Shown here: positions 37,641-55,687 of the stretch, in pieces
How positions within the stretch are numbered: position 1 is the first letter of the stretch
Layout: the number at the start of each line of letters is the position of its first letter
Assembly: GCF_005576615.1 (NCBI RefSeq)
Contig: NZ_CP040330.1
Location: 2,418,001-2,482,000, forward strand
Direction: 5' to 3'
DNA from: Natrinema versiforme
Lineage (GTDB): Archaea > Halobacteriota > Halobacteria > Halobacteriales > Natrialbaceae
Length of the DNA stretch: 64,000 bases
The notes under the pieces: model-generated
The model's input: only the letters and a program-made list of their open reading frames with translations
Database searches by the model: none
Told to the model about the DNA's origin: nothing
Program-made: the position numbers and the translations under genes

Positions 37641-38786
37641 ATGGAATTCGGACTCAGCGAAGAACAGCAACAAATCCGGGACGAGGTCCGTCGGTTCGCC
37701 GAAAACGAGATCGTTCCCAACGCCGAGGAGTACGACACCGAAGAGAAGTTCCCCCACGAGATCGTCGACGAGGCCGCCGAAATGGGGCTGGTCGGCTCCT
37801 CGATCCCCATCGAGTACGGCGGAGCCGGCTACTCTACCCTCGAGTCGGCGCTCATCGCCGAGGAACTGTTCTCCCACGACCCCGGGATCGCGCTCTCGAT
37901 CATGGCCTGTTCGTTCGGGACCGAGGCCATCCGCGAGTTCGGGACCGAAGACCAGAAGGAGCGCTTCCTCGAGCCCGTCGCGCTGGGCGAGAAGATCTCC
38001 GGTGCGGCGATTTCGGAGCCGGACACCGGCTCGGACGTCTCCTCCGTCTCGACCCGCGCCGAGAAGGACGGCGACGAGTGGGTGATCAACGGCAACAAGA
38101 TGTGGATCACCAACGGCACGGTCGGCGACTTCTTCGTCGTCCTCTGTAAGACCGACCCCGACGCCGAGAGCCGCTACGACGGCTTCAGCCAGATCATCGT
38201 CGAGTCCGACCGCGATGGCTTCTCCTCGGACAAGATCACCGGCAAGCTCGGCATCCGCGCCTCCGACACCGCCGAACTCATCTTCGACGACGTTCGCGTT
38301 CCCGAGGAAAACCTCGTCGGCGACCGCGACGCCGCCTTCCTCCAGCAGATGCAGTTCTTCGACGCCACCCGAACCGGCGTCGCCGCACAGGGACTCGGCA
38401 TCGCGAGAGGCGCACTCGAGGCCGCGCTCGACTACGCCGAGGACCGCGAGCAGTTCGGCCAGTCCATCTCGGAGTTCCAGGCCATCCAGCACAAGCTCGC
38501 CGACATGGCGACCAAGACCGAGGCCGCGCGCAACCTGACCTACAAGGCCGCGTGGAACGTCGATCAGGGCAACGACATCACGAAACTCGCCTCGATGGCC
38601 AAGGAGTACGCCTCCCGCGTCGCCGTCGACGTCTCCAACGAGGCCGTCCAGATCCACGGCGGTGCCGGCTACGTCAACGACTTCCCCGTCGAGCGCTTCT
38701 ACCGCGACTCGAAGATCACCCAGATCTACGAGGGCACCACCGAGATCCAGAAGAACGTCATCGCTCGAGAACTCTTAGACGACTAG
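37641..38786 (+). CDS. Acyl-CoA dehydrogenase
   Basis: A 381-aa flavoprotein with a typical short-chain acyl-CoA dehydrogenase pattern: ISGAAISEPDTGSDVSSVSTRAEKDGDEWVINGNKMWITNG, RVPEENLVGDRDAAF, GVAAQGLGIARGALEAALDYAEDREQFGQSI, and ITQIYEGTTEIQKNVIAREL with the catalytic Glu in YEGTTE. A CTCTTTATCG element around 37608-37617 is the likely TATA. The divergent partner completes the beta-oxidation spiral. A structured repeat begins 3 nt after its stop codon. Confidence 0.94.
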   Translation: MEFGLSEEQQQIRDEVRRFAENEIVPNAEEYDTEEKFPHEIVDEAAEMGLVGSSIPIEYGGAGYSTLESALIAEELFSHDPGIALSIMACSFGTEAIREFGTEDQKERFLEPVALGEKISGAAISEPDTGSDVSSVSTRAEKDGDEWVINGNKMWITNGTVGDFFVVLCKTDPDAESRYDGFSQIIVESDRDGFSSDKITGKLGIRASDTAELIFDDVRVPEENLVGDRDAAFLQQMQFFDATRTGVAAQGLGIARGALEAALDYAEDREQFGQSISEFQAIQHKLADMATKTEAARNLTYKAAWNVDQGNDITKLASMAKEYASRVAVDVSNEAVQIHGGAGYVNDFPVERFYRDSKITQIYEGTTEIQKNVIARELLDD

Positions 38787-38789
38787 AAC

Positions 38790-38980
38790 CGAAATTTTGC
38801 GCTGCGCTCTGGCGAGACGACGCCAGCATCGCTGGCGCACGTCTCGCCGACGCTCGGCAAAATTTCGATCAAAAGCACTCCTCCTTCCCCTTTACTACGT
38901 TTCGGGTCAGTCGTCGGCCCGCTCGCTCACTGCGTTCGCTCGCGGTCGTCACCGGGTAACAGCCTGCCCTTCCCCGGGTC
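38790..38980 (+). repeat. Structured 3'-end element, copy A
   Basis: Begins 3 nt after the acyl-CoA dehydrogenase stop. Blocks in order: CGAAATTTTGCGCTGCG (38790-38806); hairpin GGCGAGAC/GTCTCGCC (38811-38818 with 38841-38848) enclosing GCCAGC/GCTGGC (38822-38827 with 38831-38836); CGGCAAAATTTCGATCAAAAG and CACTCCTCCTT (to 38886); CAGTCGTCGGCCCGC (38908-38922); GCCTGCCCTTCCCCGGGT (38962-38979). The same blocks recur, with different hairpin stems, after the gene at 54.8 kb. AAATTTT and AAAATTT of the first and third blocks can also pair, making a longer outer stem. Confidence 0.75.
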
Positions 38981-39285
38981 ATGCGGCTCTCACATTCGTT
39001 CGAGCCACATTCTCGGCCACCGATCTGGGCCGTCTCAGACGACCACGATCACCAGCGATAGCGCGACGAAGACCACGTGCGTGGCGCGTTGGCGGCAATA
39101 ATCTACGCGACCGACGAGGGACATGAGTCCGGCGTGACGGGCAACGCGATGCGACTGGCGAACGTCGAGCCCGACCTGCCCGACGAGCGACATCAAGAGT
39201 AGGGAGACGAGAAACGCCGACGCCGACTGGCCCGTCGACCGAGACGCCTATCTTTCCCCGGCCCCTTCCCGCGGTACCGACACGA
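38981..39285. other. Intergenic region with one possible small membrane ORF
   Basis: Apart from the short minus-strand frame at 39035-39193, no gene is visible before the DNA glycosylase start. Confidence 0.35.
39035..39193 (-). CDS. Possible small membrane protein (52 aa)
   Basis: A minus-strand frame starting MSLVGQVGLDVRQSHRVARH and ending ATHVVFVALSLVIVVV, with a hydrophobic C-terminal helix. The segment MSLVG(Q/R)V occurs twice, 23 residues apart, so initiation at 39124 is also possible. It rests only on composition and hydrophobicity. Confidence 0.25.
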   Translation of the reverse strand: MSLVGQVGLDVRQSHRVARHAGLMSLVGRVDYCRQRATHVVFVALSLVIVVV

Positions 39286-54550: not shown

Positions 54551-54610
54551 GGGGAGATCGACTAACCTGAATGGCCGGGAGCGAGTTCCGAGCACTGCGA
54601 GGAACTCGTA

Positions 54611-54806
54611 ACCCGGGGGAGGGCAGGCAGGTACCCGAAACCCGCCGCGAGCGCCGAAGGCGCTCGCGGGCCGACGACTGATGTGGAGCGAGAGAATCGA
54701 GCGGAACGGAAGGAGGAGTGCTTTTGATCGAAATTTTACCGAGGGACAGCACGCTCCCGACAAGAAATTTGTCGGGAGCGTGCCAGACCGCAGCGTAAAA
54801 TTTCGT
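54611..54806 (-). repeat. Structured 3'-end element, copy B
   Basis: Read on the minus strand, it begins 5 nt after the stop codon of the HD-domain gene. Blocks: CGAAATTTTACGCTGCGG (54806-54789); a perfect 15-bp hairpin GCACGCTCCCGACAA/TTGTCGGGAGCGTGC (54783-54769 with 54763-54749); CGGTAAAATTTCGATCAAAAG and CACTCCTCCTTCC; CAGTCGTCGGCCCGC; a 10-bp hairpin CGCGAGCGCC-ttc-GGCGCTCGCG (54668-54646); GCCTGCCCTCCCCCGGGT (54628-54611). Block order, orientation and position relative to a stop codon match copy A at 38.8 kb, while both hairpin stems are unrelated in sequence. Confidence 0.75.
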
Positions 54807-54810
54807 TGCT

Positions 54811-55626
54811 CTAGAGCTCGATCCGCTCGACCAACTGCTCGCGGTTCTCGTTCGTGTTGAGCGCGACGATCCGGATCTGGTCCTCGAGGCCGGAGTCCTC
54901 GAGTTTGGCCTTGAGTAGGTTGTCGACCTGATAGACACCGGCGGCGTTGGTCATCGCGATTTCGACCATGACGGGCGTGGTGTCGCCCCGCTGGAGCGAG
55001 ACGCTGCTGATGGCCTGACTCGAGAGGGTGTTGATGCCCCGGCCGCCGTGCTCGTAGGGGATGCGCGAACGGCCGCGTTCCATGTCGAGGGCGTCGGAGA
55101 CGCGGATGACGCCGGCTTCGGTGGTCAACGGCGTCTCGGCGGTGTGGTGACAGAGGATCGCGTGCAGGACCTCGCCTTTCATCCGGACCGTCTCGGCGAT
55201 GTCGTAGAACTCGGGGAGGATCCGGTCGAGGATGTCCGCCGCCAGCGGGATCGAGTAGTAGGCGTGGCTGTCGCGGTGGACGACGTGGCCGACATCGTGC
55301 AGCGTCGCTGCCAGCGCGACGATGACCGATTCGTCCTCCTCGGCCAGTCCCTGCTGGCGCGCGCCGTTGAAGTCGACCTCACCGGCCTTGAGCAGGTCGT
55401 AGAGACACAGCGCCCGGTTGCGGACGATCTCGATGTGTTTCGTTCCGTGGTCGTTGTACCGCATCCGGTCGACCGCGTTGACGTTTTGGGCCTCGAGATA
55501 CGTCGTGATCTCCTCGTCGTCGTCGATGAACTCGAGGACCGAGTTCAGTTTCTCGTCGGGAAAGTTGTGATCGTCGTCTGGAGTATAGACGCGGCGGGAG
55601 TCCTCGTCGACAGCGGGGTCGCTCAT
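54811..55626 (-). CDS. HD-domain metal-dependent phosphohydrolase
   Basis: This is a 271-aa protein. The HD-superfamily metal site is visible as DRMRYNDHGTKHIEIV, then the His-Asp pair in ALAATLHDVGHVVHRDSH and a later HAILCHHTAE. The C-terminal ~70 residues (RGDTTPVMVEIAMTNAAGVYQVDNLLKAKLEDSG) are a small alpha/beta appendage. Probably a nucleotidase or cyclic-nucleotide phosphodiesterase; the substrate is unknown. The start MSDPAVDED at 55626. A structured repeat begins right after its stop. Confidence 0.85.
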   Translation of the reverse strand: MSDPAVDEDSRRVYTPDDDHNFPDEKLNSVLEFIDDDEEITTYLEAQNVNAVDRMRYNDHGTKHIEIVRNRALCLYDLLKAGEVDFNGARQQGLAEEDESVIVALAATLHDVGHVVHRDSHAYYSIPLAADILDRILPEFYDIAETVRMKGEVLHAILCHHTAETPLTTEAGVIRVSDALDMERGRSRIPYEHGGRGINTLSSQAISSVSLQRGDTTPVMVEIAMTNAAGVYQVDNLLKAKLEDSGLEDQIRIVALNTNENREQLVERIEL

Positions 55627-55687
55627 ACCGGTACGTCGGTTGCGGACTAAAAAAGCCCTGCGACGGTCGTGACTGCGTGATGCGACG

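Follow-up and report, generated by a model that had tools for sequence, protein, structure and literature searches.

The 64-kb window, the whole stretch of Natrinema versiforme DNA analysed here, contains two copies (A and B) of what is apparently an uncatalogued, multicopy family of haloarchaeal elements. In these elements, variable hairpins are embedded in a conserved skeleton that ends at the stop codon of a facing gene. The sequence-only reading had offered strong covariation or the exchange of palindromic cassettes at a fixed site as alternative explanations for the differences between the two copies, and both are true. That reading had overlooked the anchoring to stop codons, the paired T4 tracts and the spread through the order. 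With moderate confidence, we read the element as a structured scaffold for transcription termination that occurs in many copies, is anchored at gene ends and carries exchangeable hairpins.

No covariance-model match was found among the 4227 families of Rfam, and copy B had none even at E-values up to 1. Searches of the open-licence literature gave no named description of the element, and no match in support of a phage origin was found.

Architecture of the element

Read 5' to 3' on the plus strand, the element starts with hairpin 1, CCGGGGGAGGGCAGGC, the slot 1 hairpin and GGCCGACGACTGA. It continues with an optional middle hairpin, GGAAGGAGGAGTGCTTTT, the outer-stem arm NATCNNNNTTTTGC, CGAG, the slot 2 hairpin, CGCAG and GCAAAANNNNN, followed after 0 to 5 nt by the stop codon of a gene on the opposite strand. 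Hairpin 1 and the block after it are missing in about half of the copies. The variable hairpins are set among conserved single-stranded blocks, including GGCCGACGACTGA and GGAGGAGTG, and slot 1 follows the formula CCGC GA GC GA stem GNA stem GA GC GA GCGG. The coordinates of both copies are given in Table 1.

Table 1. Features of copies A and B and of their anchored genes in the 64-kb window.
Feature	Position	Strand	Remark
Copy B, whole element (long form)	54573..54810	+	covariance-model core match 54645-54805, 146 bits
Copy B hairpin 1 (CGAGTTCCGAGCA/TGCGAGGAACTCG)	54582..54608	+	position also occupied in other long copies
Copy B conserved block CCCGGGGGAGGGCAGGC..GTACCCG	54612..54637	+	
Copy B slot 1 hairpin, 11 bp, GAA triloop	54645..54669	+	arms 54645-54655/54659-54669
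Copy B invariant block GGGCCGACGACTGA	54668..54681	+	alignment columns invariant or almost so
Copy B middle variable hairpin	54685..54704	+	replaced or missing in other copies
Copy B conserved block GGAAGGAGGAGTGCTTTT	54708..54725	+	ends in the first T4 tract (54722-54725)
Copy B two T4 tracts, 8 nt apart (TTTTGATCGAAATTTT)	54722..54737	+	
Copy B outer stem CGAAATTTTAC/GTAAAATTTCG	54729..54805	+	arms 54729-54739/54795-54805
Copy B slot 2 hairpin, 15-bp perfect stem, 5-nt loop	54749..54783	+	arms GCACGCTCCCGACAA (54749-54763)/TTGTCGGGAGCGTGC (54769-54783)
HD-domain-like gene	54811..55632	-	stop codon 54811-54813, 5 bp from copy B outer-stem end; limits from a rough coding-score caller
Copy A, whole element	38787..39018	-	core 38790-38945; covariance model 151.9 bits
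Copy A slot 1 hairpin, tandem G.A mismatches and GCA triloop	38919..38945	-	
Copy A two T4 tracts, 8 nt apart	38859..38874	-	
Copy A outer stem CGAAATTTTGC/GCAAAATTTCG	38790..38867	-	
Copy A slot 2 hairpin (GGCGAGAC..GTCTCGCC around GCGCCAGC/GCTGGCGT)	38811..38848	-	as the cassette at locus L014
Acyl-CoA dehydrogenase gene	37641..38786	+	stop codon 38784-38786, 3 bp from copy A outer-stem end; named from the translated sequence

The two copies share the skeleton and differ in their hairpins, as had been proposed: mean column identity in their alignment is 80%, and the variation is concentrated in the hairpins. Their common core (AGTGCTTTTGATCGAAATTTT) occurs twice in the window, against 0.00 occurrences expected by chance. 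The copy A arrangement GGCGAGAC..GCCAGC/GCTGGC..GTCTCGCC was found as described, and the 15-bp stem reported for copy B pairs perfectly, together with an 11-bp GAA hairpin and an 11-bp outer stem. The GAA-loop hairpin had been identified correctly but given a stem of 10 bp, one pair too short. Two further details had to be revised. The supposed CGCTCGC-rich segment of copy A is the same slot 1 hairpin in another form (CCGC-GA-GC-GA-AC-GCA-GT-GA-GC-GA-GCGG), and the element is longer than had been assumed, with copy B beginning at about 54573 (GGCCGGGAG) and its 3' end abutting the stop codon at 54811. Compared with dinucleotide shuffles, RNA folding yields z-scores of -6.8 for copy B and -4.9 for copy A; DNA folding yields z=-7.9. 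A short peptide encoded by GTGCTTTTGATC looks unlikely, as judged by eye in copies A and B.

In some copies, further modules are nested within this plan. Slot 2 of L008, L020, L065 and L081 holds the arrangement GTCGTTCG-[hairpin]-CGTGATCACG-[hairpin]-CGAACGAC or close variants of it, in which both hairpins are variable; in L008 and L020, CGTGATCACG forms the joint and GTCGTTCG/CGAACGAC is the closing pair. In L082, L086, L088 and L143, the 5' arm of the outer stem is interrupted by a second module with the order GAAGCTAAGCGGG-[hairpin]-CCCGCGAGGTC-[hairpin]-GAGATTTTGC.

Covariation and the folded strand

The covariation half of the earlier proposal is well supported. In an alignment of 89 distinct copies fitted to the covariance model, 97.5% of cells hold standard pairs and 21 of the 31 pairs have changed on both sides; an unfitted MAFFT alignment (A4) gives the same picture. 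Doubly changed cells number 298 versus 69 in shuffles, none of 500 shuffles reaches the observed covariation, and pairing drops to about 40% when the structure is slid along the alignment. Copies A and B themselves illustrate such compensation in the outer stem (TTTTGC/GCAAAA versus TTTTAC/GTAAAA). Within this stem, four T-A pairs are 97-100% invariant while adjacent pairs covary freely, which indicates that the letters as well as the pairing are held there.

The slot 2 hairpins were assessed as 119 distinct cassettes. A perfect stem of at least 5 bp is present in 103 of them, compared with 26 in shuffles, and by inspection the remaining 16 form a stem with a mismatch or wobble. Copies without complementary stems in the variable slots, named beforehand as evidence that would count against the proposal, were thus not encountered.

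The folded strand is the plus strand of the element. Among the non-canonical cells, G.U (42) outnumbers A.C (12), although a covariance model built for that strand may itself favour G.U pairs. Triloops close 84 of the 103 perfect slot 2 stems, with 40 of the GNA type versus 13 TNC (p=2.7e-4), and the tandem GA/GA is kept in 66 of 70 distinct slot 1 versions. Both features, the GNA triloops and the tandem G.A pairs, are characteristic of DNA hairpins of high stability, and a reading confined to RNA does not predict them.

Exchange of hairpins between sites and species

In the sister species G044, the element is present at 23 of the 27 sites. Over the 21 measured shared sites, flank identity averages 94%. 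The outer stem nevertheless differs at 14 of these, at 13 of them on both arms; at L006, one of the 14, the only difference is an unpaired letter before the stem. At site B, for example, the outer stem reads GATCGAAATTTTAC/GTAAAATTTCG here versus GGTCCAGCTTTTGC/GCAAAAGGTGG in G044. The inner cassette is less than 80% identical at 13 of the 21 sites and identical at three. Across 136 copies at 63 sites (clustered with a similarity cut-off on 50 nt), mean inner-cassette similarity is 0.66 at the same site and 0.62 at different sites. Stepwise compensatory drift alone is ruled out, since same-site cassettes are hardly closer than those from different sites and both outer-stem arms change between species whose flanks differ by 6%.

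Furthermore, 46 pairs of near-identical cassettes of at least 40 nt occur at different, unrelated sites, often within different outer stems. Cassettes are therefore exchanged at fixed sites. They recur between sites, but the set is not small: the 136 copies carry 119 distinct cassettes, which rules out a small fixed library.

The hairpin of copy A is nearly matched by one 0.69 Mb away, and its cassette differs from that of L014 by one letter. Because G044 carries an L014-type cassette at its L014 site and lacks it at site A, site A was probably the recipient. The copy B cassette resembles that of G044 locus L143. Across 29 congeners, sites A and B show the same turnover, including absence of the element.

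Other loci show rearranged arms. At L021 the 3' arm is duplicated, with a new arm followed by what is left of the old one, and L015 forms a perfect palindrome throughout; both are what fold-back (template-switch) synthesis would be expected to produce. The slot 2 loop is TTC at L030 and GAA at L146 of the sister species on the same stem, so the hairpin tip appears inverted.

Distribution and position at gene ends

A BLAST search within the Natrinema genome returned about 27 copies, 20 of which were used to build the covariance model R1. In the window, R1 scores 152 bits at copy A and 146 bits at copy B, with 14 bits at the next place. The element is present in the own genome and all 24 sampled congeners, and most contigs bearing the exact core AGTGCTTTTGATCGAAATTTT are from Natrinema. 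Across the order, this single model matched 150 of the 243 genomes, representing 46 of 77 genera; it is skewed toward Natrinema-like copies and under-counts divergent families, and with 12 candidates scored per genome, the per-genome copy counts are lower bounds.

At 18 of 21 measured sites, 0-5 bp separate the 3' end of the element from the facing gene's stop codon; at 19, the distance is -1 to 5 bp. Over four sets of copies, a stop codon lies within 8 bp in 58 of 93 copies, including 12 of 17 in other genera, as placed by a rough gene caller. Only a small share of genes bears the element. The anchored genes include PolD DP2, probable DP1, GyrB, two thermosomes, an AAA ATPase, a TFIIS-type zinc ribbon protein, L10e/L16, aIF1A and TrkH, and in a minority of genomes of other genera the element likewise sits at the gyrB and polD-DP2 stop codons. 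Where two copies lie within 1 kb, their 3' ends point outward, toward two genes, in 13 of 13 cases counted by eye. The share of convergent neighbours shows no significant enrichment (13 of 22 versus 43% expected, p=0.14), so an element that does nothing but insulate convergent genes is rejected.

Elements of different sequence occupy comparable positions. At L239 of G044 (C45), orthologous to locus L012 of the own genome (G000), a different hairpin element (CATCGAAGTTTTTTGGCCGGG...GACCCGGTGAAAAAAGTTCG) stands at the same stop codon. It repeats the plan of two T-runs, outer stem, inner hairpins and stop codon, and looks like a second family of one superfamily. In other haloarchaeal families, L264 and L272 (both gyrB) and L294, L299 and L302 (all polD DP2) carry, at these same gene ends, T-run/hairpin/A-run elements of other sequence, which suggests a superfamily of stop-codon-anchored elements.

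A proposed terminator scaffold

Two T4 tracts are present in 86 of the 89 distinct copies, separated by exactly 8 nt in 83. In the window, the pattern TTTTN{6,10}TTTT matches only copies A and B (2 versus 0.29 expected); as 5 of 100 shuffles also reach two, this count is weak by itself, and the argument lies in the conservation over copies. Binding of aCPSF1 in Methanococcus requires at least two U4 tracts, which also give the highest termination (PMC8716108), and in Haloferax, T stretches terminate transcription and one hairpin stopped 59% of transcripts (PMC7237163). We read the element as a terminator scaffold because the U4 pairs are conserved and the T and A letters of the outer stem are held.

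On the plus strand, a transcript would present the hairpins, a conserved purine-rich strand (GGAAGGAGGAGTG) and then the pair of U4 tracts with 8 nt between them. The second of these lies within the outer stem, whose AAAA arm gives the opposite strand a U4 about 6-15 nt behind the neighbour's stop codon. A polymerase arriving from the far side, on a convergent neighbour's mRNA or an antisense transcript, may be released before reaching the gene, or have its RNA cleaved by then, possibly through the aCPSF1/FttA pathway. The anchored gene's own transcript would meet a U4 tract and a hairpin just behind its stop codon. On this reading, plus-strand transcripts would end at TTTTGATCGAAATTTTGC, and minus-strand transcripts a short distance past the anchored stop codon. 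As the arms would need only to pair, they could both drift in a compensatory manner and be overwritten in blocks by other copies, probably through ectopic gene conversion at the conserved blocks, aided by polyploid recombination. Several points speak against the terminator. An RNA ending at the U4 tracts would leave the distal hairpin in nascent RNA only, yet this hairpin covaries; the small share of genes that bear the element, the lack of significant enrichment of convergent neighbours and the hairpin features characteristic of DNA also count against it.

Whatever its role, the element is widespread in a whole archaeal order, absent from the RNA family library and found where essential genes end, and it sets structure apart from sequence with unusual clarity. 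Two questions thereby become testable: how gene 3' ends are defined in haloarchaea, and how whole stems are replaced at fixed sites faster than compensated point mutation would allow.

Alternative readings

The element may instead be mobile or selfish and non-autonomous (MITE-, PATE- or REP-like), with a transposase recognising its hairpins; it would then persist beside stop codons because insertions elsewhere are lost. Its many dispersed copies, presence or absence at orthologous sites, nested hairpin modules (L008, L020, L143), strand-specific hairpins resembling HUH transposase substrates and one match on a Natrinema thermotolerans megaplasmid are all consistent with mobility. We nevertheless consider this rather unlikely: no copy lies within 1.5 kb of any TnpA or TnpB gene in the genome, no terminal inverted repeats are visible, recent identical full-length copies are absent, the sites are old (23 of 27 are shared with the sister species), and the exact stop-codon spacing and paired T4 tracts are left unexplained. 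An IS200/IS605 origin (PATE, omega-RNA) is ruled out, as there is no similarity near the transposase genes.

A structured RNA of a 3' UTR or antisense transcript, protecting RNA ends or binding a protein with termination as a secondary effect, would fit the covariation on one strand, the G.U preference, the conserved single-stranded blocks and the anchoring to many housekeeping genes. However, the folded strand is antisense to the anchored gene, the upstream gene occurs in either orientation and no common promoter is visible upstream by eye, which makes this a distinctly unlikely account.

The triloops and tandem G.A stems could also point to strand-specific DNA hairpins that stop polymerase and are moved as units by a dedicated single-strand mechanism. 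This is improbable; if true, each few percent of genome divergence would bring new arms, with site, skeleton and pairing remaining constant. GNA triloops and tandem Py-GA-Pu mismatches, on which slot 1 is built, are exceptionally stable in single-stranded DNA, as in d(GCGAAGC), and transcription of the anchored gene uses the element's plus strand as template. Plus-strand hairpins or cruciforms that block the passage of RNA polymerase or of replication at gene ends would fit these features and the DNA fold score, but are very improbable, as these regions fold strongly as RNA too and cruciforms extrude less readily at high salt.

Comparison with known systems

The element was compared with several known classes of elements. 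As regards MITEs, no terminal inverted repeat is visible and the compared sites include no clean empty/filled pair from which a target duplication could be read. In bacterial intrinsic terminators, a U-run directly follows a GC-rich hairpin; here the plus strand after the distal hairpin reads AGCAAAATTTCGTT and not a U-run. Integron attC sites conserve structure while varying in sequence and form single-strand hairpins beside stop codons. The element resembles them in all three respects; unlike attC, its stem ends lack the AAC/GTT core pair, and both flanks are syntenic, which speaks against gene-cassette mobility. In place of the inverse core sites RYYYAAC/GTTRRRY, we found by eye GATCGAAA on the 5' side and TTTCGTT on the 3' side.

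The PATEs of Haloquadratum (PMC3119063), which cause no target duplication, are likewise short, non-coding, palindromic haloarchaeal repeats with heterogeneous copies. Their near-terminal palindromes are common to IS605-type transposons; no such link was found for the element, as the covariance model gave nothing significant around 4 Y1_Tnp and 15 TnpB matches. PATE palindromes near the two termini are also alike in sequence, whereas the element's 5' hairpin 1 and 3' outer stem are unrelated. Moreover, its sites are conserved between species and anchored to stop codons. Pneumococcal BOX elements (PMC3049150) are also modular interspersed repeats with a predicted RNA fold and variable internal modules. 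BOX varies in the number of boxB units, whereas here unrelated perfect hairpins swap in fixed slots, and the two share no sequence relation.

The closest comparison under the terminator reading is with archaeal aCPSF1/FttA U-tract terminators (PMC8716108; Haloferax, PMC7237163), which share the two U4 tracts just past gene ends; two tracts of at least four U, the sequence part of that definition, are found in the same 86 of 89 copies. Those terminators are short tracts without required structure. Here, in contrast, the tracts lie within a conserved multi-hairpin scaffold that is repeated across the genome, anchored to stop codons and built with exchangeable arms.
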